Shown here: positions 2,665 to 53,750 of the stretch, one piece after another | Position numbering within the stretch: position 1 is the stretch's first letter | Layout: every line of letters begins with the position of its first letter | Assembly: GCA_030430205.1 (NCBI GenBank) | Contig: JAUIGE010000035.1 | Span: 1-63,144, forward strand | Direction of reading: 5' to 3' | Source of the DNA: Bacteroidia bacterium | Lineage (GTDB): Bacteria > Bacteroidota > Bacteroidia > J057 | Length of the DNA stretch: 63,144 bases | Program-made: the position numbers and the translations under genes | Notes under the pieces: generated by a model | What the model was told of the DNA's origin: nothing | The model's input: only the letters and a program-made list of their open reading frames with translations | Databases searched by the model: none

Positions 2665-3051
2665 TTACCAAATCCTTTCAATATCGTAATTATCAAACTT
2701 CTTATCAGCACTAACAATTGGGAATCCTTCGGCCATAGCTTGAGCAATAATAATTCTGTCAAATGGATCCCGATGATGATAAGGTAGCTTTTCTACCTGG
2801 AAAATATGAGCATACTCAAATTGAAGGAGTTTATATCCAATCAGCTCAAATTCTTTTTTGACAAATGCAGGAAATGAAGGTTGAAACTCTAATTTCCCAA
2901 GGCTTGATTTTACGCCCATTTCCCAAACGCTAGCCATACTAATGAATCTTTCTTCATCAAAATTGTCAACAATTCGGCGAGCTTTATTAGAAAGTTGGTC
3001 ATTTCCTTCCGCATACCAAATCAAAACATGAGTATCTAAAAGATAGGGCAT
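2665..3051 (-). CDS. PIN-domain ribonuclease toxin (VapC-like)
   Basis: A 128-aa PIN-domain protein, predicted Mg-dependent endoribonuclease toxin. The expected acidic residues are visible: D6 (LLDTH), E44 (SVWEMG), D98 (RDPFDR) and D116 (SADKKFD). The HRDPFDR block is typical of the Sll0205-like PIN subgroup. It lies two bases downstream of a DUF2281-type antitoxin gene, so the pair is a co-transcribed toxin-antitoxin operon. Lower GC than the flanking permease suggests acquisition by transfer. The family assignment is firm; the RNA target is unknown. Confidence 0.88.
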   Translation of the reverse strand: MPYLLDTHVLIWYAEGNDQLSNKARRIVDNFDEERFISMASVWEMGVKSSLGKLEFQPSFPAFVKKEFELIGYKLLQFEYAHIFQVEKLPYHHRDPFDRIIIAQAMAEGFPIVSADKKFDNYDIERIW

Positions 3052-3387: not shown

Positions 3388-4128
3388 ATGAAAACCCTCA
3401 ACTGCCCCGACTGCGGCGCCCACATCCCTCCCTCCGAAATCAATGTGCAGGCCAATATCGCCAAATGCACCAGCTGTTCGCACGTCTTTCCGGCCAGCGA
3501 ACTGGTCGATCCGGTCACCGAAAGCTACCGCAACAAGCTTTACCCGCCGACTGGCAGCAAGATCGATATCTTCGAAAACGACAACGGCAATGTCGAACTG
3601 CGTTTGCCACCCAAAGGCCTGACAGGAAGTACCACTTACATCGGCTTTTTTAGTGTCGCCTGGCTGAGTTTTATCACTTTCTGGACCTATATGTCTGTGA
3701 GCATGGTCCCTTTTCCGGGCAATATTTTCTTTGGCCTTTTCTCCATCCCTTTTTGGTATGTGGGCTTTATGATGGCCTACAGCATCATGAATGCGTTGAG
3801 AGAATACCAGACCATCGAGGTCGAAAAGAATGAATTTGTGGTGAAAAAAGTGCGCCCCATCAACTCACAAACGGAAATCATTCCGTTTGCCCAACTCGAT
3901 CATATCGCCTTGCGGCAAATGGACAAAAAGAAGGCTTTTTCCTCCATGGACAAAATGCCCATGAACAATACCAACCGAAATACAAATGAGGAACAGCCCA
4001 TGCCAATGGTCCCGACTTTCCAGATGGGCATCAACAAAGTAAACTTTTTTGAGTATGTAGAGCCGGAAGAAGCAGCATGGCTCATTCAAACTTTGAATGA
4101 CTTGAAAGCCGAAAGGCTGAGTGCATAA
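3388..4128 (+). CDS. Zinc-ribbon membrane protein, function unknown
   Basis: A 246-aa protein with an N-terminal four-cysteine zinc ribbon (C6-x2-C9 and C27-x2-C30). Two hydrophobic segments follow at about residues 84-102 and 106-130 (FFSVAWLSFITFWTYM, FFGLFSIPFWYVGFMM), then a soluble domain rich in polar residues with a methionine-rich stretch (MDKMPMNNTNRNTNEEQPMPM). Similar ribbon-plus-two-helix proteins are common hypothetical genes in Bacteroidota. It is transcribed away from the toxin-antitoxin pair and converges on the CHAT genes. No catalytic motif was recognised. Confidence 0.7.
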   Translation: MKTLNCPDCGAHIPPSEINVQANIAKCTSCSHVFPASELVDPVTESYRNKLYPPTGSKIDIFENDNGNVELRLPPKGLTGSTTYIGFFSVAWLSFITFWTYMSVSMVPFPGNIFFGLFSIPFWYVGFMMAYSIMNALREYQTIEVEKNEFVVKKVRPINSQTEIIPFAQLDHIALRQMDKKKAFSSMDKMPMNNTNRNTNEEQPMPMVPTFQMGINKVNFFEYVEPEEAAWLIQTLNDLKAERLSA

Positions 4129-4156: not shown

Positions 4157-7100
4157 TCAAACTTTCTTCCGCCGCCTCCAAAGCAGAGCAAGTGAGAGTG
4201 AGAGAGCGAGAGAAGAAAATAAGATGATCCAGGCCCATGGCCTGGATTTTTTGATGGGGATAACTCCCCCATCTCCGATCAGCACATAATTCGCCCAATA
4301 ATAGGGGTGACTATGCTGATTGTCAGCTTGTTCGAGCCAAAGCTGGCGGGCCTCCTGAAGCGAAGCTTCAGTGGATTTTCCGGCGGCGAGGCCGGCAAAG
4401 AAGGCTTTGCTGATCTCCGCGCCTGCGCGGTCGTCGGTCTGCCAAAGCGTGCTGAGCACGCGCTCAGCGCCGCTATATTGAAAGGCACGAGCCAGGCTCA
4501 TGACTCCTTCCCCGCGTTGGAGCGGGCCCAGCGCCGTCTGGCAGGCGCTCAACACGACCAGCGGGCTGTTGAGCCGGAGGTTGTAGATCTCGTAGGCATG
4601 CAGGATGCCGTCTTCTCCAGGATCATCTGTCCCGTCAAGGAATAGACGGGAGCGCATCAAATCGCTCTCGTCTGCCAGGGCATGCGTGGCGAAATGCAGG
4701 ATATTGCTCTGAGGAGGAAGGCTTTTGACAAAACTTTCCTGAGCAAGTGGGCCGAGCAAGGCTTTTCCATGAAATAAACTCGCTGCTACCTTTACCTCAT
4801 TCTGGTTAAATTGAAGGCTAGCAAGGGCCATCCGGCTTCCTGCTATTTCCTCCCCACTAAAAAGGGGGGCAAATCCCAGGTAAGAAGCTTTTCCGTCAGT
4901 TTTTGACAGATGCTGCTGTAGCCAAAGGGCAGCGCTGTAGCTGTAAGTGGAAGTATGAAGATGGAGCAAAAAAGGCCATTCTTTCCAATTCAGCTTATCC
5001 GTTTTGGTGCCCAAAAGACTTTCAAAAGGCAGATACCCGAGCGGACCATCAGGGATAATCAGCAATTGATTTTTGTCTGAAGATAATCCTGGAAGCAACT
5101 GCTGAGTAAAGGCAATTGTATTTTCTAATAAGAGAGGTAAATGGGAGGGATTATCCTCCGGAGGAAAGGAGATAAATCCAATCCATTTATTCAGATTTCC
5201 CTCAAAATCTTCTGTCAAAACGATCTCTTCCATTTGCCATTCCCCCCGAAATACCTGAAAAACAAAAAGATAACGTTCTCCCCAAAAGTAGCTGTACAAA
5301 GCCTGATTGGGCAATAACTGCTGACTCACATCTTGAAGAGAAAGGGTTTCAGAAGGATATTTCAGGTGAAAATAGCGGGGATACGATTTTTCTAATTTTT
5401 GCAAAAAAGTGCGGTACTGCTGTTTGAGGGAAAACTGCAATTGCCTGGCGCCTGCCAACTGAAGACTGTCGACTTCTTCACCATATTGGATGGCTTCCAG
5501 GGCAGCGATGCGCTGCTGAAAGTACTGCTCCCGTTCCAGCAGGGAATCGGGGATTCCCGAAAACCGAAGCGCCTTATGGCTGCGCAAATGCTCGCGAAGG
5601 TTTCCTGCCTTGCTTTCTTCTGCCAATAAAAATGCTTTTTCCAGGTATGCTGCCTCTCCGGTCATTTTGTATACATCAAAAGCCAGGTGGATGGCATTTT
5701 CCGTGGTCGTGCGATGTCTTTGCACGCCCAGTTGCCGGGATTCCGGCGAGTCGTAATAGGTCCTTTGGCTGTCTGCGACAGCCAGGGCAAGTTGATAGGC
5801 TGCCAGGGCAGCCTGCAGGTCTTCGATCTTTTTGCTTTGTTCAAAGCGCAGTTGCAGGCTGTTGCCTTGCTCCACCAGTATCTCATTCAGCTTGTTTTTG
5901 GGCCAAAAAGGCAAAAGCCGCGCATCTGGCGCTTCCCGAAAAGGAAGCTCCGGCAGGACCTGTTCCCAGGCCAGTCGATGCATATACATGCAGGAATCAA
6001 AATCACCCAATCGACGCCAGATAACCGCCATATCCTTATAAATTGGTACGCTACGCCACTTCACTTCCGATTGGGTGAAAATCGCCAGAGCTCCTTTGTA
6101 AGTGGAAAGCGCAGGGCGCAGTTTACCTTCTTCCAGGAGCACATCGCCCATGCCAACCAGACTTTGAGCCCGATAAACGGAATATTCATCTCCATTTTTT
6201 TCTGCCAACCGCATCGACTCTTCAAAGGCTTTCATCGCCGCAGGATAGATTTTAGCCTCCAGGAGTGTTATTCCTTTTCGATAAAAAGAAGTAATCAGCT
6301 GAAAATTATCCGGTCCATAGAGACCCGTCTCTTTTTCAATGGTAAGGTTGATATTTTGCACTGCTTCCTTAAAATCGCCTCTTTCGCGCAAGATCTCTCC
6401 CCGCTCGCTATAGATAAAAGCATAATGCTCCTGTGACATCCCGGGATTCGCATCCAGCAGGCGTTCCGCCTGCGCCAGTACCTCCCAGGCCTCCTTGTCA
6501 TCTCCCACACTGACCAGCATGGTCGCGAGATTGAGCAAAACGCCCAAATGAGGCTCTGGCGGCAGATTTTCGAGATAAACCATATTGGCTTTGTGGTATT
6601 CGAGGGATTTCCAGTACAGCCCCATATCTGCATAATGAATGCCGATATTGGTTCGGATTTGGACCAATTGCGGATGGCCTTTGCCCAGGTGATGGCCCAT
6701 GATTTTTTCTGCCTGCAGATAATGCTGAAGAGATTCATCATATTTATCCATCCAACTCAGCGCTGCTCCAATGGAATTTTCGCTATAGCCAATGGTGATG
6801 TGAAGGGGGTGAAAAATACGTTTGCGAATTTCCAGGGCTTCCTGGCTCACCTTCAGGGAATTTTCCCAATCCGAGATCACCAAAAAGGCGATTCCCTGCC
6901 CATGCAGGCACATGGCCAGCAGCGAATCCTTCTCCGGCGACAAGCGCCGGGCGTCGGCCAGCAGCGCTTCATAGCGCTGAAGCGCACTGTCCATCTCGCC
7001 TTTGAGGAGGTGCAGGGAGGCGCGTTCGCGCCGGGCAAGGATCACCCCCGGATGGTCCCATCCGACGGTTTTTTGCAGCGCGATGGCGCTGTCCAGGGTG

Positions 7101-7360
7101 GCGGCGCCTTCGTCGAGCTGCATCTGCCGTGTCAGGTATTTGCCTGATAAAAAGAGGGCATTGGCCTCGCTGGAGGCGTCATGACGAAGCTGTGCTTCGC
7201 GCTGGGCTGCGCGAAAAAGCGCATAAGCGCTGTCAAAGTTGGCAGCAAGCCATTGCTGCTGCCCGGCATCGAGCAGCACCTCAGGCGTTTGCGCCTGGAG
7301 TTTTGGCGCAAAAAGCAGCAAAAGGCTGCACATCCAAATCTTGAATCTATTCAAAATCAA
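4157..7360 (-). CDS. Envelope-anchored TPR-CHAT protein (copy 2)
   Basis: A 1067-aa protein ordered as signal peptide (to about residue 23, LLLLFAPKLQAQ), many TPR helices (about 25-560), linker, C-terminal CHAT caspase-like domain, one transmembrane helix (about 1040-1060) and a basic tail WRRRKKV. The CHAT catalytic pair is intact: H893 in HFATHA and C940 in VLSACQT, with the usual RGEGVMSLARAF and DDRAGAEIS blocks. The topology puts the TPR and protease domains in the periplasm, anchored in the inner membrane, if the first segment is cleaved. It follows its paralogue (7384-10584) by 23 bases on the same strand, so they are probably one operon. The substrate is unknown; CHAT domains in general are cysteine proteases or degenerate relatives. 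Confidence 0.88.
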   Translation of the reverse strand: MILNRFKIWMCSLLLLFAPKLQAQTPEVLLDAGQQQWLAANFDSAYALFRAAQREAQLRHDASSEANALFLSGKYLTRQMQLDEGAATLDSAIALQKTVGWDHPGVILARRERASLHLLKGEMDSALQRYEALLADARRLSPEKDSLLAMCLHGQGIAFLVISDWENSLKVSQEALEIRKRIFHPLHITIGYSENSIGAALSWMDKYDESLQHYLQAEKIMGHHLGKGHPQLVQIRTNIGIHYADMGLYWKSLEYHKANMVYLENLPPEPHLGVLLNLATMLVSVGDDKEAWEVLAQAERLLDANPGMSQEHYAFIYSERGEILRERGDFKEAVQNINLTIEKETGLYGPDNFQLITSFYRKGITLLEAKIYPAAMKAFEESMRLAEKNGDEYSVYRAQSLVGMGDVLLEEGKLRPALSTYKGALAIFTQSEVKWRSVPIYKDMAVIWRRLGDFDSCMYMHRLAWEQVLPELPFREAPDARLLPFWPKNKLNEILVEQGNSLQLRFEQSKKIEDLQAALAAYQLALAVADSQRTYYDSPESRQLGVQRHRTTTENAIHLAFDVYKMTGEAAYLEKAFLLAEESKAGNLREHLRSHKALRFSGIPDSLLEREQYFQQRIAALEAIQYGEEVDSLQLAGARQLQFSLKQQYRTFLQKLEKSYPRYFHLKYPSETLSLQDVSQQLLPNQALYSYFWGERYLFVFQVFRGEWQMEEIVLTEDFEGNLNKWIGFISFPPEDNPSHLPLLLENTIAFTQQLLPGLSSDKNQLLIIPDGPLGYLPFESLLGTKTDKLNWKEWPFLLHLHTSTYSYSAALWLQQHLSKTDGKASYLGFAPLFSGEEIAGSRMALASLQFNQNEVKVAASLFHGKALLGPLAQESFVKSLPPQSNILHFATHALADESDLMRSRLFLDGTDDPGEDGILHAYEIYNLRLNSPLVVLSACQTALGPLQRGEGVMSLARAFQYSGAERVLSTLWQTDDRAGAEISKAFFAGLAAGKSTEASLQEARQLWLEQADNQHSHPYYWANYVLIGDGGVIPIKKSRPWAWIILFSSLALSLSLALLWRRRKKV

Positions 7361-7383
7361 ATCCTCTTATCTCGTTTTTAAAA

Positions 7384-10300
7384 CTATTTCTTCCTCCTCA
7401 CATACCAGGCAAGGGAAAGCAAGATAGTGGAGAAAAGGAGCACCCATATCCAGTAGCGGTTTTTGGCGATAGGGATTTTTCCTCCATCCCCGATCAGCAC
7501 ATACTGCGCCCAAAAATAGGGGTGCGCATGGTAGCTGTCCGCCTGGCTAAGCCATGCTTTGCGCGCTAGCTGCAAGGCGATGGCGACATCTTTTCCCTCT
7601 GCTAATTTCTCAAAAAAAGTTTGACTTATCGCTGCGCCTGAGCGATCATCTGTCTGCCAAAGCGTGCTCAGCACGCGCTCACAACCGCTATACTGAAAGG
7701 CACGAGCCAGGCTCATGATGCCTTCTCCCCGCTGAAGCGGGCCTTGAGCCGTATGGCAGGCACTCAGCACGCAGAGCGGGCTGTTGAGTTGCATCCCATA
7801 GATCTCGAAGGCATGCAGTATGCCGTCTTCGGTGCTGTCTTTATTTTGCTGCAAAAACAGCCGTGACTGCATCAATTGGGACTCGTCGGCCAGGGCATGG
7901 GTAGCAAAATGCAGGATGTAAACCTTGCTGTCCAGCCTTTTGAGGCTGTGCTCACTGGCAGCAGCGCCGATCATGGCTTTGCCTTTGAGTAGCTTCGCGA
8001 CATCTGTTATTTCTGTTTGGTTGTGGAGCAAAGGACTCAGGGCCGCACGGCTGCCGGAGGATTCTCCTGCACCAAATTCCGGTGCAAAACCGAGGTATTG
8101 GCTTGTGGCTGAGGAGGCCATTTGCTGGCTCAGCCATATCTCCGCCGCAGGCGCATAAGTCAGGGCGCAGTCATTTCCCAAAAATGCCCAGCTCCGAAAA
8201 TCATTTCCCGCCCCTTTTTCTCTCAACAGGCTTTCAAAGGGCAAATAGCCCAATTGGCCATTGGCCAAAATGGCCAGCTTCTCCATCTCTACCGAAAAAT
8301 TCGGAAGGAGTAGCTGCTTCAATTCAAAAGCTTGCGCCGCAAGCTCCTCCATAGAAAAAGCCTCCGCCGGAGGCGGGTGGGAGATGGCATCCGTCCAGCT
8401 TTTCAGAAGCGGGCTGACATCGGCAGTCGCCAGGGAGGAGCATGCTATTTTTTGTTGAAAAAGGCGGAAAATAAAAAGCTGTTTTTCGCCCCAAAAATAG
8501 CTGTACATCGCTTTTTGAGGGTCTAAATGAGCAAATACATGTTGTAGAAAAATATCCGGGGAGGCATATTTGAGTGCATGATAAGCGGGAAAATCCTGCT
8601 CCAGCTGATGGATAAAGCTGCGAAATTGATCCTGCAGATCAAAAGCTTCCTGCTGCAAAGCGACGCGCTTTGCGCTATCTGTCTGAGGACTCAGCCGGCT
8701 TTCGTTTACCGCAGCGATGCGCTGCCTGAAGTAACGCTCCTGCTCCAGCAGGGAGTCGGGCAGACCCGCGAAGTGCAGCGCCTGCACTGCCCGGAGGTGG
8801 TCGCGCAAGTCATTAGCCTTGCTTTTTTCGGCGAGCTGAAAGGCACGTTCGAGATAGGAAATTTCCCTGCTTTCCTGGTACAAATCCTGGCAGCAGCTCA
8901 GCGCTGCTTCATATATCGGCAGCTGATCTCCCAGCCTGACTTGCCTGGATTCAGGCGATTCGTAATAGTGTCTTTGGCTGTCGATGACAGCCAGGGCTGC
9001 CTCATAGCAGGCAAGCGCAGCTTGCAGCTCCTCCGGACTTTTTGCAAAAGCCCGCAGGCTTTCTCCCTGTTCAAACATCATGTCTTCCAGTGGATGAAAG
9101 GCCCAGAAAGCGCGTATCTCCGCCGGAGGCGCAAGTTGAAAAGGCAGCTCCGGCAGGAGCATGGTCCAGGCTTGACGGTGCATGTGCATGCAGCTGTCGC
9201 GCTTGCCTTGCAAGCGGAAGTTGATAGCCATTTCCCTGTAGGTATCGGCTAATTCGAATGTATTTTCGATGGCAGAATAATTGTCCAGCGCCTGGTCAAA
9301 GCGGGCTTCAGCCAGGCTGTATTTTCCTTGCATACGGGCAAGGCGGCCCAGATAGCTGAGGGCGTGCCCGCCCTGGAGAGAATGGGCTCCGATCTGCTTT
9401 TGAGCTATCTGAAGGGCCTTTTCGAAAGCTTCATCCGCTTCCGGAAAGCTTTTTTTGGCCATCAGCAGATCTCCCCATTGCAGGTAATCGGTTAACAATT
9501 CCGGGTGGCCTTCGCCATGCAATTCCCTGTTTTTTTGCAGGGCTTTTTCTATTTCTGTCAATGCTTTTTCCTGCTGCCCCAACTGCTGATAAATGGTGGA
9601 GCGGTTTTGGGCGATATATGGAATATGCTCTGCCCGGAGCTCTGTATTTTTTTGTAAAAAAGCATCTGCCTGATCAAAATACAGCAAAGCTGCCTGATAA
9701 TCGCCTACGGCGATCAGGGTGGCTCCCAGATTGAGCAGGGCATTCAGATGTGGCCGTGTTTCCAACACCTCTTTTTGTTTATACACTTGCTGATGCACCC
9801 GCAAGGATTTCCAAAACAGGCCCAATTCTCCATAGAGTACCCCCAGGTTGGTTTGGATTTGCAGCACATTGGGATGAGCGGGGGGATATTTTTGGTTAAA
9901 AATGGCGACAGCCTGCTCAAAATGAGCGATGGATTCTGGAAAGCGATCCAGGTACATATACATGATTCCCAGGGTATTGGCGCAAATGCCGATTTTGACG
10001 TGCTGGGGGTGAAAAATGCCTTGATAGAGCGCCAGGGCTTCCTGACTGGCCTGGAGGCCTGCCTCAAAGTTTCCCTGGTAAAAGTAGGCCTGTCCGAGGG
10101 ACTCTTTGACAAGGCCGCGGATGGAGTCCGCCGCAGGCGGAAGCGGCTGTAAATCGGTGAGGATGTCCTCATAGCGGCCAATGGCTTCGGGTATCTGGCC
10201 TTGATTCAAGGCCACGAAGGCGCGCTCGCGGCGCGCGAAAAAAAACATAGCAGAGAGGGAATCGAGCCTTTTTGCCATGACAATGGCACTGTCCAGGGTC

Positions 10301-10584
10301 AGGGCAGCAGTTGAAAGCTGCATTTGACGGGCAAGGTATAAACCTGAACGATAGGTGGCTTCAGCCTGGGCTTGTGGGTCAAGGACTTGTGTTGCAGCTA
10401 TTTGACTTAACCTAAACAGGATGTAGGCACTATCAAAGTCACCTACATCCCATTTTTTTTTGCCTTCCATGAGCAAGGCTTTCGCTGATTCTTTTTCTGG
10501 TTCCAATGGCTTTTGCCCGCTTAACAATACTATCAGCAGGAAGCTAATGAGTGCTAATAAGGCGGAAAATCCACGCTTTTTCAT
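7384..10584 (-). CDS. Envelope-anchored TPR-CHAT protein (copy 1)
   Basis: A 1066-aa paralogue of the next gene downstream, with the same order: N-terminal hydrophobic signal (ALLALISFLLIVLLSG), TPR array, CHAT domain, one C-terminal membrane helix (WIWVLLFSTILLSLAWYV) and the basic tail RRKK. Catalytic residues H896 (HFATHA) and C943 (VLSACHT) are present. Long blocks are identical to the neighbour (RGEG, SLARAFQYSG, ERVLSTLWQTDDR), whereas the TPR part is much more diverged, which suggests duplication followed by divergence of the sensing part. As the first gene of the pair it probably carries the promoter, in 10585-10636 or further upstream. Confidence 0.88.
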   Translation of the reverse strand: MKKRGFSALLALISFLLIVLLSGQKPLEPEKESAKALLMEGKKKWDVGDFDSAYILFRLSQIAATQVLDPQAQAEATYRSGLYLARQMQLSTAALTLDSAIVMAKRLDSLSAMFFFARRERAFVALNQGQIPEAIGRYEDILTDLQPLPPAADSIRGLVKESLGQAYFYQGNFEAGLQASQEALALYQGIFHPQHVKIGICANTLGIMYMYLDRFPESIAHFEQAVAIFNQKYPPAHPNVLQIQTNLGVLYGELGLFWKSLRVHQQVYKQKEVLETRPHLNALLNLGATLIAVGDYQAALLYFDQADAFLQKNTELRAEHIPYIAQNRSTIYQQLGQQEKALTEIEKALQKNRELHGEGHPELLTDYLQWGDLLMAKKSFPEADEAFEKALQIAQKQIGAHSLQGGHALSYLGRLARMQGKYSLAEARFDQALDNYSAIENTFELADTYREMAINFRLQGKRDSCMHMHRQAWTMLLPELPFQLAPPAEIRAFWAFHPLEDMMFEQGESLRAFAKSPEELQAALACYEAALAVIDSQRHYYESPESRQVRLGDQLPIYEAALSCCQDLYQESREISYLERAFQLAEKSKANDLRDHLRAVQALHFAGLPDSLLEQERYFRQRIAAVNESRLSPQTDSAKRVALQQEAFDLQDQFRSFIHQLEQDFPAYHALKYASPDIFLQHVFAHLDPQKAMYSYFWGEKQLFIFRLFQQKIACSSLATADVSPLLKSWTDAISHPPPAEAFSMEELAAQAFELKQLLLPNFSVEMEKLAILANGQLGYLPFESLLREKGAGNDFRSWAFLGNDCALTYAPAAEIWLSQQMASSATSQYLGFAPEFGAGESSGSRAALSPLLHNQTEITDVAKLLKGKAMIGAAASEHSLKRLDSKVYILHFATHALADESQLMQSRLFLQQNKDSTEDGILHAFEIYGMQLNSPLCVLSACHTAQGPLQRGEGIMSLARAFQYSGCERVLSTLWQTDDRSGAAISQTFFEKLAEGKDVAIALQLARKAWLSQADSYHAHPYFWAQYVLIGDGGKIPIAKNRYWIWVLLFSTILLSLAWYVRRKK

Positions 10585-10636: not shown

Positions 10637-10906
10637 TTACCAACGATCCCTTCTGGGACGTTCTTCACGGGGTTTTGCCTCATTGATTTTCAAGGCTCTT
10701 CCTCCCATGTCCGTTCCATTCAAGCCATCAATGGCATCATCAGCACCATCTTCCATTTCTACAAATCCAAAGCCTCTGGGGCGGCCTGTGTCGCGATCTG
10801 TAATCAAATTGACAGAAGTCACTGTACCATAAGATTCAAATAACTCCCGAACGCCGTCTTCATCAGCAGAGAAAGGAAGGTTTCCAACATAAATTTTCTT
10901 AGACAT
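10637..10906 (-). CDS. RRM RNA-binding protein
   Basis: An 89-aa single-RRM protein of the cyanobacterial/Bacteroidota Rbp type. RNP2 is IYVGNL (5-10) and RNP1 is RGFGFVEM (44-51), with the RNA-stacking aromatics in place. The tail is short and basic/acidic (REERPRRDRW). Such proteins bind single-stranded RNA and are often cold- or stress-induced. The leader (10907 onward) has an A/T-rich stretch with a run of T residues, fitting a strong promoter or regulated leader, but no motif there is diagnostic. The gene diverges from the exported protein at 11016. Confidence 0.9.
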   Translation of the reverse strand: MSKKIYVGNLPFSADEDGVRELFESYGTVTSVNLITDRDTGRPRGFGFVEMEDGADDAIDGLNGTDMGGRALKINEAKPREERPRRDRW

Positions 10907-11015: not shown

Positions 11016-12002
11016 ATGAAAAATGTAGTAACCCCCTTTTGTCTGGCTTTGGCCTGCTTGTATTTAACTGGCTCTCAATTGACTATTTTACCCAAACCGC
11101 AGATCTCCGGTAGCCAAAATGATCTGCATGCGAAGGTATATGATGACAGCCTCTTGCAGCAGTTGCAAGATCCCTGTGAAGGAGCATTTACGGTTAAGAT
11201 GCCGGGAGAGGGCTGGTGCTCCTTTGCGGGCCTCACCCGCGCTTATGGGCTGATCCGCCCTTTGGGTAGAGCGGCGGAGATGTATGGCTCAGCCAGGCTT
11301 TTCTTTGGCGACCCTGCTGTCCCAACCTACCTGCTACCGCAATCGGAGATGAAAGACCTTGCCGCCGATCATCCCCTCATTGAGCTGAAAGAAGTGATGG
11401 AACCAGCGGAATATGCGCGCATGTATTTGTCCCAAAAGTATGAAGGGAAGGGAAAGCTCAATATCCTGCGAAGCTCCCCTGATGCGGAATTGAAACAAAT
11501 CCTGGAAAAACAGGCGAAAAATTATCCTGAAAAAACCTTTTCCATATCCTCTGTCTGTGTGGCATACAGCCTGGAATCAGACTCTCTGCCCATGCGGGGG
11601 CTTAGCAGGGGGGAGCTCAATTGCTCCATCGTCCGGATGGACGACCTTTGGGGCGTGGAGCTCAGCGGCTTTAGCAGCCAGGCCGACAGCCTGGATCTGC
11701 ATGATATGCTGCGAGCTGTTTTGCACTCCTACGAGGTGGACCCATCCTGGATCGCCCGCAGCCATTTATACCAGCCGCGCCCAACCTACCAACTCTTCGA
11801 TCCGGAAGATACGGCGGTTCATTACTACAGCGTGACACCGGAAGCATTTTTGGGCTCCAGGTTCAATGACGGATGGAGTTATTACTGGAAAGATGAAAAA
11901 ACGGGAGAAATCCGTCCCAGTGATATTCTGGAGAATCCAGACCCATCTCGCTATGTCCGCTGGTACAAGGGTGAACTTTGTAAGCGCATTTTTTGGGAAT
12001 AA
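11016..12002 (+). CDS. Exported protein of unknown family (paralogue A)
   Basis: A 328-aa protein with an N-terminal hydrophobic signal (FCLALACLYLTGSQL) and no recognised family. It shares a chain of motifs with the following gene: F(T/S)VxMPxxGW, RxFFGDPxxPTxxxP, EYAxxYxxQ, GELxCSI, WxxxxSGF, a Trp after the DP/NP turn, YYW near the end and ENPDPSRYxxW. The order is the same in both, so they are tandem paralogues. They probably act in the periplasm or outer envelope. It lacks the Gln-rich insert of its neighbour and has no lipobox. Function unknown. Confidence 0.72.
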   Translation: MKNVVTPFCLALACLYLTGSQLTILPKPQISGSQNDLHAKVYDDSLLQQLQDPCEGAFTVKMPGEGWCSFAGLTRAYGLIRPLGRAAEMYGSARLFFGDPAVPTYLLPQSEMKDLAADHPLIELKEVMEPAEYARMYLSQKYEGKGKLNILRSSPDAELKQILEKQAKNYPEKTFSISSVCVAYSLESDSLPMRGLSRGELNCSIVRMDDLWGVELSGFSSQADSLDLHDMLRAVLHSYEVDPSWIARSHLYQPRPTYQLFDPEDTAVHYYSVTPEAFLGSRFNDGWSYYWKDEKTGEIRPSDILENPDPSRYVRWYKGELCKRIFWE

Positions 12003-12096: not shown

Positions 12097-13287
12097 ATGA
12101 AAACTTTAACATTCCTCCTTCTGAGCCTTTCCATACTGGTACTTACCTCCGCTTGTAGCAGTGATGTTTCTGAGCCTGCATACTATGAAAATGGCATGTC
12201 GCAGGACCCTTATGCTCAGGGTCAGCAGTCGAATGATCCTTATGCCAATTCACAACAGGTCAATAATAGCTATTCAAACCAACAACAAATGAATTATCAA
12301 AATTCATCCACTCCCGAGGGTTTTGTCCGTATGACGGACCCCAAAGAAAACGCTTTCAGCGTTTTGATGCCCAAAGGCTGGCAGGCTCAGGTGAGCCTGG
12401 AGCGGCCCGGCGGCCAGATTCGTTCCTGTGGCGTAGCCACGAGTCCTGATGGCGCTACGCGCATCTTTTTGGGAGATCCCAATATCCCCACTTTTTTCAG
12501 CCCCAACCTAGGATATGCAGACTTGATCGAACGCCAGCCGATGAGCAAAGTAAGGCAGCAGGTAAGTGCTGCACAGTTTGCGCAGGAGTACATTCAGCAG
12601 GTATTTGGGCAGCAGGGGCGTCCCCAGATGGGGCAGCCAGCCAGAGACCAGGAGTTATTATTTGACACCCAGCAAAAGGCAAGAGAAGCGGGCGTCCAGG
12701 TGCAGATAGACTTGGCTGTGGTCCCCTTTACGACAAGCTGGCAGGGAAAAGCCATTCAGGGAGAACTTGTCTGTTCTATCATGGCACAACCTGAATTTTG
12801 GATTGCTTCCGTATCAGGCTTTACCACCACAGATCGCGATGTCGCCAAGATCAGCAGTATCCTACGGGTTATATTGAAATCTCAGAAGTCCAATCCCGAG
12901 TGGCTCCAAAAAGAGAAAATGAAGCAGCAACAGCAGCAAATGCAAAGCCAGCAAATGATGGCTCAAAGCCAGGCTGCCCACCAGCAGCGCATGGCCAACA
13001 ACCAGGCACAGTTCAACGCACACCAGCAAAGGATGCAGGCCAATCAGCAGGCTTTTGATGCGCACAACCAAAGCTGGAACCAGCAGCAGCAGATCAATGA
13101 CCAGAGCCATCAGAACTACATGAATTACCTACGGGATGAGAATACCATCACCAATGGCGGATACCAAAGCCAGGTACAATCCGGCTACAACTATTATTGG
13201 GTTGATCCAAATACAAATGAGTATATAGGGACACAGTTTAATGAGAATCCTGACCCGACCAGGTATCAACTTTGGCAGAAGAAATAA
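12097..13287 (+). CDS. Gln-rich lipoprotein of unknown family (paralogue B)
   Basis: A 396-aa lipoprotein: signal ending in the lipobox LTSAC (Cys20), then a low-complexity N/Q/Y stretch (about 30-75) and a domain homologous to the 328-aa product just upstream (MPKGWQ, FLGDPNIPTFF, GELVCSI, WIASVSGF, ENPDPTRYQLW). Between the shared core and the shared C-terminal YYW-ENPDPTRY block it carries a roughly 70-residue Q/M/N/H-rich segment (about 268-345). That segment looks disordered or coiled and may be a late expansion. Both genes point the same way with a 94-base gap. No function can be assigned. Confidence 0.72.
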   Translation: MKTLTFLLLSLSILVLTSACSSDVSEPAYYENGMSQDPYAQGQQSNDPYANSQQVNNSYSNQQQMNYQNSSTPEGFVRMTDPKENAFSVLMPKGWQAQVSLERPGGQIRSCGVATSPDGATRIFLGDPNIPTFFSPNLGYADLIERQPMSKVRQQVSAAQFAQEYIQQVFGQQGRPQMGQPARDQELLFDTQQKAREAGVQVQIDLAVVPFTTSWQGKAIQGELVCSIMAQPEFWIASVSGFTTTDRDVAKISSILRVILKSQKSNPEWLQKEKMKQQQQQMQSQQMMAQSQAAHQQRMANNQAQFNAHQQRMQANQQAFDAHNQSWNQQQQINDQSHQNYMNYLRDENTITNGGYQSQVQSGYNYYWVDPNTNEYIGTQFNENPDPTRYQLWQKK

Positions 13288-13346: not shown

Positions 13347-13359
13347 AAATTCATTGATA

Positions 13360-15138
13360 ATGAAAACCTACAAACTATCCCTCCTCCTGAGCCTCTCTTT
13401 CCTGATCTCTCTGCCTGCTTTTTCACAATCGAACTTCGAATGGGGGCTGACAACAGGCAGAGCCAAAAGAGATGAAGCCACCGACCTCAGCATAGATCCA
13501 CAGGGCAATGTCTACATCACGGGTACCTTTGAAGACTCCATGGATATGGCCATCAGCGGACCGAAGGATTTTTTGCATGGATATGGCTACAGAGATATTT
13601 TTCTGGCGAAGTATGATCCATCAGGTTCAAAACTTTGGGCTTATGCTTTTGGTGATACCAGGTTTGATCGAAGCTGGGCAATGACTACAGATGCGCAGGG
13701 TGCTGTCTATATGGGTGGGGTTTTTGGAGGACACGTAGATTTTGACCCGGGCAGTGACTCCAGCTTTTTGACTTCCAATCCGGCAGGTTTCTGGCCAGAT
13801 GGCTATCTGGCAAAATATAACACACAGGGCGAACTCGTCTGGGCAAAGCACCTCCTCACAGCGCGAAACCGCTCCGCCAGCCAGTCTGCGACGCTCTTCG
13901 GCATCACCGGCATCGAAGTAGATGCCAATGATGATATCATCATCGGCGGCATGTTTTGGGACAGCGTCTGGCTGGCCCCTAACAAGCTGATCGTATCCCA
14001 GGGCTCGCTGGCCGATATGTTTCTGGCAAAATATGACAACAACGGCAACCTCATCTGGGGAATACAGATGGGAGGTGCGGGTGATCAGCGAATTATGTCT
14101 CTTTCAGTGGACCCCCAGGGCAATATCTTTACAACTGGTTTTTATTTTAGCAACCCGGATTTTGATCCGGCGGGAGGTACCGTATTGAGTAGCCAGGGTG
14201 CGGAAGACATCTTCCTGGCCAAGTACAGCAGCGCAGGTTCGCTGCTCTGGGCAAAGGGCTTCGGAAGCCCTTCCGGCAGCAATACCTCCACGGAATCCGG
14301 GCTGGATGTCGGTACAGATGATATGGGCAATGTATATTGCACAGGCCGCCTACTGGGCACCGTGGACTTTGACCCAAACAGTGCCGCAGGCAGCATCGTC
14401 TCCATGGGCGGAGCCAACTTTTTTTGTACAAAATTTGATGGCAGTGGCGCTTTCCAATGGGTGTTTTCACTCGAAGGAAATGGCTATAAGATAGGCAAAA
14501 GGCTTGCAGTACAGCCCAATGGCGATTTTTGGCTGGGAGGAGAGTATGGGATAGGTGCCCCACTGGGTGGCCTCGATATCGATCCGGGGCCCGATACAGT
14601 GTTGATCTATGCGCTCGGAGGGCCAGAAGACAATTTCGTGGCGAAATACGACAAGGATGGCGCTTTTCTGACCGGATGGGACATCCGGGGACTGGGAGGC
14701 AGCAAGCTCGAAGGCCTGGCGGCCTCAGGCAATGAGCTGGTTTTGGGAGGCTATTTTGATGCCTCTATCCTGCTCAATCGCCAAAGTGGCGACCTCCGAT
14801 TCTCCAAAGGAGATGCGGATCTCTTTGCCGTCAAATATGGTCAGGGAAATATGAGCGTGGAAAATGCTCTGCAAAAAGTGGATTTTTCCATTTTCCCCAA
14901 CCCCGCTTCCCAACAGATCCAGCTGACTTTTTCCCTCCCAAAAGCCCAAAGCCTTTCCTTTAGCCTGTATAGCCTCGATGGCAAATGCGTCATGACGCTG
15001 GACCAGCAAAAAAGCCTTTCCTCCGGAAATCAACATCTCAGCTGGGATCTGGATGAAGAGCTGACGCCCGGGCGATATTTACTCGCCATCGCCTCGGATC
15101 AGGGGCAAAAGGTCTTGCCGCTTGTGATTGTCAAATAA
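13360..15138 (+). CDS. SBBP-repeat beta-propeller protein, T9SS cargo
   Basis: A 592-aa secreted protein: signal peptide (LSLLLSLSFLISLPAFSQS), then repeated SBBP-type blades (GNVYITGTFED, GAVYMGGVFGG, NIFTTGFYFSNPDFDP, NVYCTGRLLGTVDFDP) with the FLAKYD phrase recurring about every 60 residues. It ends in a type A T9SS sorting domain from about residue 512 (FSIFPNPASQQ to ATPGRY-like TPGRYLLAI). It is expected to be exported and attached to or released from the cell surface. TTG at 13354 is in frame, but ATG at 13360 starts a better signal peptide. Binding partner unknown. Confidence 0.88.
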   Translation: MKTYKLSLLLSLSFLISLPAFSQSNFEWGLTTGRAKRDEATDLSIDPQGNVYITGTFEDSMDMAISGPKDFLHGYGYRDIFLAKYDPSGSKLWAYAFGDTRFDRSWAMTTDAQGAVYMGGVFGGHVDFDPGSDSSFLTSNPAGFWPDGYLAKYNTQGELVWAKHLLTARNRSASQSATLFGITGIEVDANDDIIIGGMFWDSVWLAPNKLIVSQGSLADMFLAKYDNNGNLIWGIQMGGAGDQRIMSLSVDPQGNIFTTGFYFSNPDFDPAGGTVLSSQGAEDIFLAKYSSAGSLLWAKGFGSPSGSNTSTESGLDVGTDDMGNVYCTGRLLGTVDFDPNSAAGSIVSMGGANFFCTKFDGSGAFQWVFSLEGNGYKIGKRLAVQPNGDFWLGGEYGIGAPLGGLDIDPGPDTVLIYALGGPEDNFVAKYDKDGAFLTGWDIRGLGGSKLEGLAASGNELVLGGYFDASILLNRQSGDLRFSKGDADLFAVKYGQGNMSVENALQKVDFSIFPNPASQQIQLTFSLPKAQSLSFSLYSLDGKCVMTLDQQKSLSSGNQHLSWDLDEELTPGRYLLAIASDQGQKVLPLVIVK

Positions 15139-15159: not shown

Positions 15160-17040
15160 ATGAAAACGCATTTATCCTTTTTCTTCCTCTTCGCCCTCCT
15201 GGCCTCTCTTTTTGCCCAAACCGGGCCTCTTGTACCCCAAATGTCCCACTGTGACAACCAGATCACCCAGTTTATGAATACCTACAGCATTCCTGCTGCC
15301 ACGGTAGCCATCACCAAAGATGGCAAGCTGGTCTATATGCGCGCCTTTGGCAATGCAGACCTGGCGGGAACGGAGCCAACGCAGCCGCATCACATGTTTC
15401 GGATTGCCAGCCTTTCGAAGCCCATCACGGGCATTGCGATCATGAAACTTGTGCAGGACAATAGGCTGAGTTTATCGGACAAGGTTTTTGGGCCGCAGGG
15501 ACGCCTTGCTGGCAATGCTTTTCTCGATAGCGCACATGTCACAGACAACAGAATTTTTGATATCACCATCCAGCATTTGCTGGAGCATACTGGTGGTTGG
15601 AACCGTGATGTAGCCTGTACCCCCAGCCCCACCTCTCCTTATGCCTGGCATGCCAACCATTGTGACCCCATTGGTTTTCCCCTGCATGTAACGCAGGTAT
15701 TGGGCACAACCAATCCGGTCAGCGAGGATGCTTTGATTCGCTTTTTGATGGAAAAAGGGCTCAATTTTACCCCTGGAAGCACCTATGCTTATTCCAATAT
15801 TGGCTATTTAACATTGGGGCTGGTAATCGAAAAGGTTACAGGTATGAGCTATGAGCAATATGTGCAGAAGGCGATTTTGCAACCTTTGGGCATTTGTGAT
15901 ATGCATATCGGCAAAAATCTTTTGGCAGATAAGCGCGAGCGTGAAGGAGAATACAAGGGAAATGGGTATACAGCTCCTTCCCTTTACGGAACCGGAAACA
16001 CTGTTCCCTGGGAATATGGCGGCTGGAACCTTGAAGCCATGGATGCCCATGGTGGCTGGATCGCTTCTGCGAGGGATCTGGTGCGGCTACTTGTAGCCGT
16101 GGATGGCTTTTCTACCAAGGCAGACATCCTTTCCAGTGCGACTATCCAGACGATGACTACGGGTTCGACCAGCAATGTCAATTATGCAAAAGGCTGGACA
16201 GTGAATGCCTCGAATAACTGGTGGCATACAGGCGCTTTGGATGGCACAGCAAGCCTCCTGGCACGGACCTCCGGTGGCTATACCTGGGCCATCATCCTTA
16301 ACAAAAGAGTCATTGGCAGCAGTTCCAACAACTTTTGGGCTGACCTGGATGGGTTGCCCTGGAATTGTCTCAACCAAACGATCAGTTTTCCCAGCCATGA
16401 CCTACTCGATTTCCCCAGCCTCAACAGCTCGAACCTCCACTTCAACGGTCAGGGAAGTACTTCCATGAAGGTGAAGTGGCAAAAAGGAAATGGCAATTTC
16501 CGCCTGCTGATCGCCAGGGAAGGCGCAGCCGTAGACGCCTTTCCCCTCGACGGGGAAGATTATACTGGCAATGCCGCTTTCGGCATGGGAGATGAAGTCG
16601 GCACAGGCAACTTCGTTGTCTATCAGGGAATGGACGACAGCGTCGAGATCACAGGACTTGATCCTGCGAAGACCTACCATTTTCGCCTTTTTGACTACAA
16701 CAAAAACTTCAATACAGGCTTTCACAGCCTTTACCAGTTGTGCGATTATGCTGCTGCCAGCGCAAAGACTTCAACCAATACCTCTATCACAGACCTGACC
16801 GCTCAGGGCATACGCCTTTTCCCCAATCCTGTCCGGGATGTGCTCCACCTGGAGTTTTCGAAGGCCTCCGGCGTAGATCAGCTACAGCTGAGTAACCTTC
16901 ATGGGCAACTTATGCGCCGCCAGGCGGTGACGGGTTTGGAAGCGAAGCTTGATGTCTCGGATCTGCCTGCGCAGATGTATGTGCTGACTTTGTATAAGGA
17001 CGGTCGCAGGGTGGGGAGCGCGAAGGTTGTTATTGAATAG
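15160..17040 (+). CDS. Class C beta-lactamase-fold serine hydrolase, T9SS cargo
   Basis: A 626-aa secreted hydrolase of the beta-lactamase/DD-peptidase (Pfam Beta-lactamase) superfamily. The signal peptide ends near FAQT. The active-site SxxK is S84-L-S-K87 (FRIASLSKPITG), the second motif is YSN (TYAYSNIG) and the third is HTG (WWHTGALDG). The catalytic domain ends near 400. A middle beta-domain (YHFRLFDYN) follows, and a T9SS type A domain (RLFPNPVRD...AQMYVLTLY) closes the protein. It could be an esterase, peptidase or true beta-lactamase; the fold alone does not decide. It is 21 bases downstream of the SBBP gene, so they may be co-transcribed. Confidence 0.88.
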   Translation: MKTHLSFFFLFALLASLFAQTGPLVPQMSHCDNQITQFMNTYSIPAATVAITKDGKLVYMRAFGNADLAGTEPTQPHHMFRIASLSKPITGIAIMKLVQDNRLSLSDKVFGPQGRLAGNAFLDSAHVTDNRIFDITIQHLLEHTGGWNRDVACTPSPTSPYAWHANHCDPIGFPLHVTQVLGTTNPVSEDALIRFLMEKGLNFTPGSTYAYSNIGYLTLGLVIEKVTGMSYEQYVQKAILQPLGICDMHIGKNLLADKREREGEYKGNGYTAPSLYGTGNTVPWEYGGWNLEAMDAHGGWIASARDLVRLLVAVDGFSTKADILSSATIQTMTTGSTSNVNYAKGWTVNASNNWWHTGALDGTASLLARTSGGYTWAIILNKRVIGSSSNNFWADLDGLPWNCLNQTISFPSHDLLDFPSLNSSNLHFNGQGSTSMKVKWQKGNGNFRLLIAREGAAVDAFPLDGEDYTGNAAFGMGDEVGTGNFVVYQGMDDSVEITGLDPAKTYHFRLFDYNKNFNTGFHSLYQLCDYAAASAKTSTNTSITDLTAQGIRLFPNPVRDVLHLEFSKASGVDQLQLSNLHGQLMRRQAVTGLEAKLDVSDLPAQMYVLTLYKDGRRVGSAKVVIE

Positions 17041-46100: not shown

Positions 46101-46364
46101 GAAGGTATTGCCAGGATATAAATCCATCAATACTTGGGTGCCGGGAGTCGTGCCATCTGTGACCCAGAGTTCTGTACCCAGGCGGCTATCCTCCGCCCAA
46201 AAGTAAACTTTGCCATTTACTTCGACGAAGTCGCCGGGCATACTGGATGATGTGGCATTAAATGAATCATTGATGTCGCCGAGCAGCACTGCCTGTGCCT
46301 GGCTTTGCGCAAAAATGCTGAGCAAGATGAGTATAGAGAAGGAAAAGCGTAATAGGTATTTCAT
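43107..46364 (-). CDS. ELWxxDGT-repeat surface protein, T9SS cargo
   Basis: A 1085-aa secreted protein made of about 18 repeats of roughly 47 residues, each with a strand LYFSAxDGxHGxE, then LWRxDGTxxGT and LLKDIxPGxxSS. The best copies are near-identical; the copies with TEAVFVNSNH and KEIHVLDPS are degenerate. A signal peptide (SILILLSIFAQSQAQA) starts it; an EWISLKEFNTDAYVVERS fibronectin-like linker and a T9SS type A domain (VIYPNPSNGQE...AGGQYFLVG) end it. ATG at 46364 is preferred over the upstream in-frame start at 46391. Ligand unknown; the repeats are probably beta-propeller-like blades on the cell surface. Confidence 0.88.
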   Translation of the reverse strand: MKYLLRFSFSILILLSIFAQSQAQAVLLGDINDSFNATSSSMPGDFVEVNGKVYFWAEDSRLGTELWVTDGTTPGTQVLMDLYPGNTFLAINSPEMVALGNKLLFEAYDGDYGTELWITDGTEAGTQLVRDINPGIHSSEMTDMVIMNGIAYFNAKTESDGYELWRSDGTHGGTYRLKDIRAGAESSYPRNLILYNNDIYFYADDGIHGVELWRTDGTYAGTSLLKDINPGAGDGIIPPASYPIFEPMVVSNGVLFFGAAEDGVNHELWRTSGTALSTYRIRDINPGADGSEPRYLVDANGTLYFTAYHASYGFELWKSDGTFGGTALVEDIAAGLTSSSPKDLTTSGSIVYFSAYFPGSGRELWRSLGTAANTYLIKEIKAGNASSNPVSMINKNGVIYFSAEDDTHGREFWRTTGGSQTTWMVKDVNPGNSGSLYQGGRDIFLGLGKFFMRANDGTHGSELWISDGTEQNTDMLKDIGLVESLSSDMSASGILPNGKILFAGTNAANGEELWVTDGTPFGTYLLKDIRTGNLSSSPASFTYWNNYLYFSANDGVNGRELWRTDGTYAGTQLVIDIYPGNTSSSPSQLTVYGNQLVMNAKTSTTDTEAVFVNSNHTFYVPWDINPNGASSPIYFTIHQNILYFSANNGIHGHELWRSDGTPAGTYLLKDIQAGIDGGNPRYLISMGTHLYFSAEDATHGRELWKSDGSSQGTEMIHDLHTGIDGSHPEYFAVIGDKLYFRANHPSFGYELFRFNSGIQAMSLVKDIFPGPGSSWPSDLTVFNNTLYFSASDEQNGRELWESYGTGNSTSLLKDIRPGNRGSRPSSMCVVGNLLYFSAYDGSHGFELWMTDGSQSGTMLRLDQLPGTASAEVSYLYNLGNKLYFSAYHPSSGKEIHVLDPSTQAFPVEGLTFDAQAEGDAVKLEWISLKEFNTDAYVVERSADGIVFSGISRQSAAGSSDSPIQYRDWDQQPLNGRSYYRLKQLDIDGRYTYSATVAVFFQPGQAEAVIYPNPSNGQELNLEFPGGTTEHIALSIYDLTGKKLWTTQLQAGNQWQLNFGQSLAGGQYFLVGTGNTVSFRKRFVVR

Positions 46365-53747: not shown

Positions 53748-53750
53748 GGC

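Follow-up and report, generated by a model that had tools for sequence, protein, structure and literature searches.

In type III-E CRISPR systems, Csx29 cleaves Csx30, an inhibitor of CASP-sigma and its known substrate, according to the cited parts of the source (PMC10028731). The same excerpts describe the DegS/RseA/RpoE pathway, in which a protease that senses envelope stress cuts an anti-sigma factor (PMC10028731). DdvS, an ECF sigma factor, acts once DdvA is inactivated, the signal being given as unknown in the portion cited (PMC4374960). For ECF54 sigma factors, the cited passages of a review report CHAT, subtilase and carboxypeptidase genes in the genomic context and mention an existing proposal of proteolytic control (PMC8999054). 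Searches of open-licence literature found no paper on the DdvA structure and none tying the CHAT domain to periplasm, Bacteroidetes and tetratricopeptide. A search for the CHAT domain with sigma/anti-sigma or extracytoplasmic function found Csx29 work alone, and one for PF12770 with sigma gave nothing judged on-topic from the titles listed.

Here we analyze two genes, A and B, in a 63,144-nt stretch of a Bacteroidia genome (the window). Our best reading is that they belong to an envelope counterpart of the Csx29/Csx30/CASP-sigma circuit. Specifically, we tentatively propose, as something a little short of probable, that A and B are membrane-tethered periplasmic TPR-CHAT proteases of a family that acts on the anti-sigma partner of an ECF sigma factor, by cutting or gating it.

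Architecture and predicted topology of A and B

Both ORFs were found, in tandem and 23 bases apart as originally predicted, with B upstream (Table 1). They probably form one operon; promoter and terminator scans scored at about the level of shuffled sequence. The ORF of A opens with a TTG, and a second TTG lies three codons further in, near 7351. The inner TTG is the likelier start, because AGAGGA precedes it at a better spacing, as judged by eye.

Table 1. Positions of features in the window
Feature	Position	Strand	Residues or sequence	Basis
Gene A, TPR-CHAT protein	4157..7360	-	1067 aa	ORF, CHAT profile match
A signal-type N-terminus	7289..7360	-	MNRFKIWMCSLLLLFAPKLQAQ (counted from inner start)	hydropathy
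A CHAT domain	4271..5098	-	755-1030	PF12770
A dyad codon, His	4682-4684	-	H893	
A dyad codon, Cys	4541-4543	-	C940	
A C-terminal transmembrane segment	4178..4234	-	1043-1061, then basic tail RRRKKV	hydropathy, AlphaFold2 model
Gene B, TPR-CHAT protein	7384..10584	-	1066 aa	ORF, CHAT profile match
B signal-type N-terminus	10513..10584	-	MKKRGFSALLALISFLLIVLLSGQ	hydropathy
B CHAT domain	7486..8295	-	764-1033	PF12770
B dyad codon, His	7897-7899	-	H896	
B dyad codon, Cys	7756-7758	-	C943	
B C-terminal transmembrane segment	7399..7455	-	1044-1062, then basic tail RRKK	hydropathy
Beta-lactamase-fold protein with type IX secretion tail	15160..17040	+		

PF12770 matched A (E 2.1e-51, 175.5 bits) and B (E 4.7e-48, 164.5 bits) above its curated cut-off of 24 bits, and the His/Cys dyad named in the original prediction is intact in each. 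Signal and transmembrane segments were called by hydropathy. Mean Kyte-Doolittle values over 19 residues were 1.49 (N-terminal) and 2.04 (C-terminal) for A and 2.41 and 1.76 for B, bearing out the signal-like N-terminus and single C-terminal transmembrane helix claimed for both; a basic tail follows each helix. Exosortase-like sorting was considered for the helix and tail and set aside; we take the tail to be a plain anchor.

The AlphaFold2 model of chain A was confident (pLDDT 87.9, pTM 0.83), with a terminal helix at 1042-1066; a loop past the catalytic Cys (942-952) had pLDDT < 50. Its five top structural matches were Csx29/TPR-CHAT chains, the best at Z 28.2 and rmsd 7.0 with 587 residues aligned. 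Foldseek TM-scores, normalized by query length, were low (Csx29, 0.37; DdvA, 0.22).

A signal-type N-terminus with a C-terminal transmembrane segment is a common layout, seen in 20/22 strong CHAT genes of the same genome and, at set thresholds, in 73 of 86 complete relatives (a gene offering more than one start codon was read from the one giving the most hydrophobic N-terminus). All 86 keep both the catalytic His and Cys, a degree of retention beyond chance. A periplasmic CHAT domain in A and B, as the original prediction had it, is thus well supported by hydropathy, and the wider family probably shares the trait. Both proteins are predicted by hydropathy to be exported. Their CHAT domains are putative proteases.

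Divergence of the two copies

A and B share 44% identity across 1045 aa. Identity is 69% across residues 871-1032 and 36% across the TPR part (30-480), so the CHAT part is indeed the more alike. Comparison of A with four further CHATs (three from other genomes) gives 29-33% for the TPRs and 49-62% for the CHAT end, which makes a variable TPR part and a conserved CHAT part a generic gradient. The earlier idea of two sensors with one shared output is weakened by this; in its favor, the CHAT-end tree groups A with B (SH-aLRT 98, bootstrap 81), and the TPR tree leaves the two unresolved.

One tree put B weakly with single CHATs of other genera (SH-aLRT 89 and 82), using a quick method and with B (winB) flagged for composition, and a smaller full-length tree left B's placement open (support 15/42). 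DNA identity between the genes ranged from 41 to 73% in windows of 60 codons. Based on these trees, weak or open as they are, and on the DNA identity, we rejected a recent tandem duplication and see no sign of a fresh copy or recent gene conversion.

Linkage to sigma and anti-sigma genes in relatives

Related CHAT genes recurrently neighbor two others, one for an ECF sigma factor and one for an anti-sigma-like protein with TPRs. Of 80 related loci, 32 had both partners within 5 kb of CHAT, 37 had at least one and 43 had neither; some contigs end early, and 6 of the 80 are the same records in which the sigma link was first sought. Of the 46 loci where CHAT has 3 kb or more of sequence on each side, 22 had no sigma and 25 no anti-sigma. 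Sigma density per 100 kb was 12.1 at 0-1 kb, 1.8 at 5-7.5 kb and 0.6 at 7.5-10 kb from CHAT, and anti-sigma density 16.0, 1.3 and 0.6 over the same intervals.

At E <=0.01, Sigma70_r2 matched 7/10 sigma partners and r4_2 9/10. The NCBIfam 'anti-sigma factor' model matched 19/36 anti-sigma-like partners (E <=0.01; the matched part of the protein is not indicated), and a TPR chaperone model matched more (26/36). A transmembrane segment was called in 48/49 anti-sigma-like proteins, with K+R higher before it than after in 45/49. A conserved stretch, LFA.yf.Pyp.....R, lies immediately beyond this segment on the outer side. In related loci, as distinct from the window, the anti-sigma is thus predicted to have one transmembrane segment with its TPRs outside. 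Its structure model reached pLDDT 88; TPR-type proteins were among the 50 Foldseek matches listed, and these do not address the N-terminal part. Comparison of that N-terminus with known structures was poor (RskA, E 0.34, eighth of 27 weak matches), and zf-HC2 was found in 5/24 anti-sigma N-termini at E <=1.

In the home genome of A and B, 9/15 anti-sigma and 9/42 sigma matches were no more than 5 kb from one of the 22 CHAT genes; the anti-sigma count is biased, since CHAT neighbors supplied the first anti-sigma model. Among the matches listed for three other genomes (G003, G005 and G007), 12/18 anti-sigma genes lay within 5 kb of CHAT versus 0.38 expected. The matches listed also include exceptions: one strong CHAT and one anti-sigma 5.4 Mb apart in G003, 5/10 anti-sigmas unlinked to CHAT in G007, and CHATs with no anti-sigma match > 43 bits in G016. 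Such linkage is expected too where CHAT is simply a target gene of the sigma.

Across 43 triples, CHAT co-varied with anti-sigma (r 0.33, P 0.0014), and r was 0.11 for CHAT and sigma (P 0.15). Within the home genome, co-variation was weak (r 0.34, P 0.075; 8 triples, not significant) and rose to r 0.65 (P 0.013) after one triple was dropped. In 8/9 codirectional loci the anti-sigma gene preceded CHAT, 3-143 bases apart; L115 and L121 are compact examples, at 27 and 3 bases. Among the 33 anti-sigma genes linked to CHAT, 10 were divergent from it and 14 convergent.

These arrangements bear on the strongest competing explanation, that CHAT is the sigma's target gene and its protease acts on other envelope proteins, in remodeling, kin conflict or cell death. 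ECF sigma factors often control genes adjoining their own, promoters could be common to the divergent pairs, and CHATs lacking both linked partners are frequent. Yet the convergent pairs have no common promoter, CHAT co-varies more with anti-sigma than with sigma, and DdvA unites CHAT and an anti-sigma factor in one chain. We consider the target-gene explanation unlikely, though a serious contender. The linkage of CHAT and sigma genes suggests a protease-triggered gene switch.

Neighborhood of the pair and possible partners at other loci

For A and B themselves, the sigma link is by family only: profile searches of the window contig gave no sigma or anti-sigma match, so no sigma pair adjoins the two genes. 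The original prediction saw no adjacent partner except a zinc-ribbon membrane protein. The first part stands at this locus, but the zinc-ribbon gene (3388-4128) is convergent and its cluster has no other member in 34 loci (window included), and we dropped it as a candidate. The beta-lactamase-fold protein of Table 1 is 60% identical to the protein encoded next to the lone CHAT gene of relative G008 (L087), a trace of shared gene order.

Among the kin of A and B, the sigma/anti-sigma genes lie ~6 kb from CHAT in G001 and ~3.5 kb in G008, a loosening of the link in this clade. These distances and the empty contig would suit a departure of A and B from the sigma circuit to serve a separate envelope task. 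However, the home genome holds three CHATs of this clade versus one linked and two orphan sigma/anti-sigma pairs (G000:C16:73885-75310 and C48:24472-25828), and the sigma genes of the kin and the two orphans form one clade (support 100/99). A departure from the circuit is improbable in our view, and A and B would act in trans, on sigma pairs encoded at other loci of the genome.

A proposed envelope switch

The proposal of an anti-sigma-directed protease builds on the computed architecture, dyad and fold, the linkage in relatives, the predicted anti-sigma topology and the CHAT-anti-sigma co-variation. A and B would be exported and then anchored by a single C-terminal helix at the inner membrane's outer face, which would place the TPR array and the caspase-like domain in the periplasm. 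The partners of this Bacteroidota family would be an ECF sigma factor and an anti-sigma that crosses the membrane once and bears periplasmic TPRs. The TPR array would read an envelope signal and activate CHAT. Cutting or remodeling of the anti-sigma factor by CHAT, just beyond the membrane, would free the sigma factor. The anti-sigma would thus be the CHAT substrate, with cleavage and control running in this direction. A non-cutting CHAT, sensing in the periplasm and retaining or letting go of the anti-sigma by TPR-TPR contact, would suit the co-variation and the predicted placement of both partners' TPRs on the same membrane side, but is the least probable alternative, given the His and Cys kept in every complete relative and the near invariance of residues around the Cys (partly selected for, as the search pattern lies near it).

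More broadly, and more speculatively, Bacteroidota may possess a widespread, multi-paralogue envelope system in which periplasmic TPR-CHATs are site-1 proteases of TPR transmembrane anti-sigmas. On this view, CRISPR would have captured a cytosolic version of an older sigma/anti-sigma/CHAT circuit as the RNA-guided Csx29/Csx30/CASP-sigma cascade, DdvA would be the fused form, and tandem CHATs such as A and B would feed in two envelope signals. If the proposed switch is right, a large, little-explained family of caspase relatives (22 strong CHAT genes in this genome alone) would gain a partner and a role, relaying envelope signals into transcription through an anti-sigma factor that it cuts or gates. 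The protease/inhibitor/sigma part of Craspase might then have originated on the chromosome, and it would fit that DdvA, an anti-sigma factor, carries CHAT.

Relation to known systems

PADLOC gave a TPR model (0.0027) with weak Cas8f (0.0076) and BovA (0.0084) matches for A and the generic TPR model only (2.1e-8) for B, and we rejected identity with a known anti-phage defense system. By function, the proposed module can be likened to DegS/RseA/RpoE, as far as the excerpts on that pathway go, in that a protease responds to the state of the envelope by cutting an anti-sigma. A difference is that DegS belongs to the PDZ serine proteases.

HetF of Anabaena is likewise a membrane-bound CHAT-TPR protein with one transmembrane segment, described as a putative protease; it differs, in the cited portion of its source, in having CHAT in the N-terminal part (aa 1-555) and a role in division and heterocysts (PMC8406250). 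CalpL/CalpT/CalpS is also a cascade of protease, anti-sigma and ECF sigma, but in the passages cited its protease is of the Lon type and cA4 switches it on during a CRISPR response (PMC11417357). ECF54 systems share CHAT genes in a sigma context; control there is proposed, in the cited passages, without an anti-sigma factor, whereas the present module includes an anti-sigma-like TPR protein.

A PDB sequence search with the CHAT profile matched DdvA of Myxococcus alone (E 2.3e-4); one with the full-length CHAT profile gave TPR proteins in its best 60 of 342 matches. The DdvA structure is titled as a transmembrane anti-sigma factor, with the chain named 'CHAT domain-containing protein'. DdvA/DdvS of M. 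xanthus thus resembles the present family in joining CHAT to a transmembrane anti-sigma factor, with an ECF sigma, but does so in one chain, where the present family has separate genes. A and B begin with a signal-type N-terminus, and no anti-sigma family was among their Pfam/NCBIfam matches at E <=0.01, so they are not DdvA-type fusions.

Csx29 was absent from the PDB matches of the CHAT sequence profile at E <=1, and A and B scored 20.5 and 19.1 bits against the NCBIfam Csx29 model (cut-off 300). No Cas7-11 lies alongside them; the genome's two RAMP matches are both on contig C31, which carries 0/29 of its CHAT matches. With no Cas7-11 context, we rejected a type III-E CRISPR identity. The original contrast with cytosolic Csx29 was right on location, since hydropathy gives A and B a signal-type N-terminus and a C-terminal transmembrane segment, and the anti-sigma of their relatives differs too in bearing TPRs and a transmembrane segment. 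Yet A shares the TPR-CHAT fold with Csx29 over those 587 residues, and both systems, as far as the cited parts of the Csx29 work describe, link a CHAT protease to an ECF sigma and a sigma inhibitor. This fold match and sigma link make Csx29 a close comparison.

Domain architecture and envelope layout of genes A and B

The tandem TPR-CHAT genes A (1067 aa) and B (1066 aa) run in the same direction, from B to A, across a 23-base spacer. In both proteins TPRs precede a CHAT domain whose profile match lies far above the family cut-off, and the two are 44% identical across 1045 residues. The His/Cys dyads (H893/C940 in A, H896/C943 in B) are present as claimed in the original prediction. Each protein has a hydrophobic segment at both termini, with a basic tail after the C-terminal one, so hydropathy bears out the proposed signal-like N-terminus, transmembrane helix and tail. 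By the positive-inside rule, both proteins are predicted to have a periplasmic body and a short cytosolic tail.

The RRM gene upstream lies 52 bases from B and could be transcribed with it. The adjoining paralogues beyond it matched no Pfam family above its cut-off. PF18962 tails at three window genes indicate type IX cargo in this host. Elsewhere in the genome, on a contig free of CHAT matches, two RAMP-family matches suggest a type III CRISPR locus (G000:C31:32691-35286).

Features of the window and orphan sigma pairs of the same genome (contig named where outside the window)
Feature	Coordinates	Strand or direction	Basis
PIN-domain protein, as in VapC toxins	2665-3051	minus	PF01850, E 7.9e-15
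Zinc-ribbon membrane protein, beyond A	3388-4128	opposite to A	weak zinc-ribbon matches only
Gene A, second of the two	4157-7360	minus	ORF reading
Gene B, first of the two	7384-10584	minus	ORF reading
Small RRM RNA-binding protein, directly upstream of B	10637-10906	minus, as B	Pfam search
Two adjoining paralogues, one cluster	11016-12002 and 12097-13287	plus	neighbour clustering
Type IX secretion tail proteins	13354-15138, 15160-17040, 43107-46391		PF18962
Beta-lactamase-fold gene	15160-17040		60% identical to gene beside CHAT in genome G008
Two AAA_14/DUF4143 ATPases, near each other	49783-51036 and 52431-53762	minus	
Orphan sigma/anti-sigma pair	C16:73885-75310		sigma tree
Orphan sigma/anti-sigma pair	C48:24472-25828		sigma tree, long branch

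The layout of A and B is typical of the wider family as well, both terminal features being present in 20 of 22 strong CHAT genes of the same genome and 73 of 86 complete relatives; the start codon chosen was the one giving the most hydrophobic N-terminus, which favours signals. The 22 strong genes (E < 1e-38, of 29 matches) were scored by hydropathy, with an 11-residue mean of at least 2.2 at the N-terminus and a 19-residue mean of at least 1.5 at the C-terminus; the exceptions are an 800-residue protein with neither stretch and a 385-residue frame. The relatives, each with 850 residues or more, come from 80 related loci in public records, the best 80 of 558 relatives found. Signal-type N-termini were found in 81 and C-terminal transmembrane helices in 75. 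All 86 keep the catalytic His and Cys, a conservation partly selected for because the locus-finding pattern sits near the Cys.

The AlphaFold2 model of A (pLDDT 87.9, pTM 0.83; alignment of 46 rows) comprises helical repeats up to about residue 660, an alpha/beta part including CHAT, and a single helix at 1042-1066. The loop after the catalytic Cys (942-952) has pLDDT < 50. When Foldseek candidates were re-aligned, the five top rows were Csx29/TPR-CHAT chains, led by 7y9x_B (Z 28.2, rmsd 7.0, 587 residues, model 267-1032), followed by an APC/C subunit matching the TPR part (Z 27.2). Separase 5fby_A covered CHAT and the preceding stretch (residues 565-1038; Z 24.5, rmsd 3.7). Foldseek's own ranking placed separase first (E 9.0e-13); among those below it were DdvA of Myxococcus xanthus, titled a transmembrane anti-sigma factor (E 2.0e-12), and Csx29 (E 2.1e-12), with query-based TM-scores of 0.22 and 0.37. 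DdvA was also the single PDB sequence found by the CHAT-part profile at E up to 1 (E 2.3e-4), and the profile's catalytic His and Cys align with a His and a Cys of DdvA.

Sigma and anti-sigma-like genes recur beside CHAT genes

Neighbour clustering of 34 CHAT loci from this genome and relatives, window included, gave two co-located recurrent clusters, of ~190 residues (11 loci) and ~245 residues (12 loci). Of 10 shorter proteins scanned, 7 carry Sigma70_r2 and 9 carry r4_2, which identifies this cluster as an ECF-type sigma factor. The longer has a cytosolic-looking N-terminal part, one transmembrane helix and TPRs. Among 36 such proteins, NCBIfam's general anti-sigma model matched 19 (E up to 0.01, best 5.4e-10) and its putative anti-sigma-E model 12, the matched portion not being located for either; TPR models also matched, one of them in 26. 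A transmembrane helix was found in 48 of 49 anti-sigma-like proteins (one gene counted twice, as L094 and L169), and K+R was higher before it than after in 45, which places the TPRs, by prediction, in the periplasm.

The AlphaFold2 model of one anti-sigma-like protein (pLDDT 88) contains a pair of short helices at the N-terminus, one long helix including the transmembrane segment, and a TPR domain. The N-terminal part matched solved structures weakly, RskA coming eighth of 27 (E 0.34). Just outside the membrane lies the consensus LFA.yf.Pyp.....R, in two blocks of 1.66 and 1.49 bits per column; other blocks run from 0.79-0.83 (least conserved) to 2.08 (a TPR block). We guess that contact or cleavage may take place at this stretch.

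At 6276-9495, L100 (G000:C32:60000-76000) has the order sigma gene, anti-sigma-like gene twice in succession; the anti-sigma model matches only the first part of the second anti-sigma-like protein (406 aa). In L061 and L093, from two genera, CHAT is separated from the sigma pair by two more genes common to both loci, of 485-496 and 352-393 aa, one resembling, by eye, a formylglycine-type protein.

Within the window's genome, a distance of at most 5 kb separated 9 of 42 sigma matches (binomial P 1.6e-5) and 9 of 15 full anti-sigma matches (P 4e-10) from one of the 22 strong CHAT genes; the anti-sigma figure is biased, its model having been built on CHAT neighbours. The best 80 loci had a sigma gene within 5 kb in 36 cases, an anti-sigma in 33, both in 32 and either in 37; they are not independent, some genomes contributing several and six being records of the 34-locus clustering, of which only L169 is among the 32. 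Where a CHAT had 3 kb of sequence on both flanks (46 loci), the counts were 24, 21 and 21 for sigma, anti-sigma and both. Across the 80 loci, densities per 100 kb at 0-1, 5-7.5 and 7.5-10 kb were 12.1, 1.8 and 0.6 for sigma and 16.0, 1.3 and 0.6 for anti-sigma. The 33 anti-sigma genes were convergent with CHAT (14), divergent (10), or upstream on the same strand (9, of which 8 have gaps of 3-143 bases).

In the further genomes G003, G005 and G007, 12 of 18 anti-sigma matches (at least 64 bits, spanning N-terminus and TPRs; two TPR-only matches of such score omitted) had a CHAT of 77 bits or more no further than 5 kb away, with gene spans taken approximately, versus 0.38 expected. By genome these were 7/7 in G005, where one locus (L093) was already in the 34-locus clustering, 5/10 in G007 and 0/1 in G003. 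G016 has CHATs, but the anti-sigma profile gave no match there above 43 bits.

Tree distances over 43 linked triples correlated for CHAT and anti-sigma (Spearman 0.33, permutation P 0.0014), less for anti-sigma and sigma (0.22, P 0.007), and hardly for CHAT and sigma (0.11, P 0.15). This pattern favours CHAT-anti-sigma contact over mere co-regulation. For the window genome's 8 triples, the CHAT-anti-sigma value was 0.34 (P 0.075), or 0.65 (P 0.013) when C37, a triple with its sigma in a different cluster, was omitted.

Orphan sigma pairs and tandem CHAT genes

Profile searches found no sigma or anti-sigma match on the window contig. One clade (SH-aLRT 99) unites A, B, a CHAT on contig C16 of the same genome and the single CHATs found in G001, G006 and G008. 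A divergent sigma/anti-sigma pair adjoins the C16 CHAT; such a pair lies ~3.5 kb away in G008 and ~6 kb in G001, and the contig of G006 does not reach far enough to show one. In the sigma tree, one clade (100/99) comprises genes from the C16, G008 and G001 loci, from both orphan pairs and from L115, whose CHAT lies elsewhere in the CHAT tree. The genome thus has three CHATs of this clade (A, B and the C16 gene) and as many sigma pairs, of which one is linked and two are orphans; A and B are predicted to act on the orphan pairs. The beta-lactamase-fold gene is a trace of a gene order common with G008.

Nine of the 80 loci contain, between them, ten pairs of CHAT genes on one strand and less than 500 bases apart. 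Agaribacillus and Splendidivirga keep the order sigma, anti-sigma, CHAT, CHAT, and their first copies, likewise their second, pair with support 100, so two-CHAT operons can be stable. That stability agrees with two inputs, one part of the proposal that A and B are two sensors with a shared output; its other footing, variable TPRs beside a conserved CHAT, is not peculiar to this pair. One further contig (L126, JAGQVA010000102.1) carries four CHAT genes in the same orientation, and its ends truncate the outermost two.

Proposed mechanism and comparison with known systems

Passages of PMC10028731 state that Csx29, the type III-E TPR-CHAT protease, cleaves Csx30 and thereby relieves CASP-sigma, and also describe DegS/RseA. 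By analogy with both, the most likely scheme is that the TPR array of the envelope CHAT protein would sense envelope state, and that CHAT, once switched on, would cut or remodel the anti-sigma protein beside the membrane. The likeness to Csx29 lies in the best re-aligned fold match of A and in a CHAT tied to a sigma factor and its inhibitor.

In the open-licence literature searched, no description was found of a Bacteroidota TPR-CHAT in the periplasm whose TPR anti-sigma is encoded by a gene of its own. Published cases of CHAT close to ECF sigma genes are type III-E CRISPR (in passages of PMC10028731) and, as far as passages of PMC8999054 go, group ECF54, there with no anti-sigma factor. In DdvA, according to PDB titles, CHAT lies within the anti-sigma chain. 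The Bacteroidota module differs from both ECF54 and DdvA in its separate TPR anti-sigma gene. We therefore regard it as a variant: the link between CHAT and ECF sigma and the DdvA fusion are known, and the Bacteroidota pairing of a TPR-CHAT predicted in the periplasm and a separately encoded TPR anti-sigma is what appears new in the literature searched.
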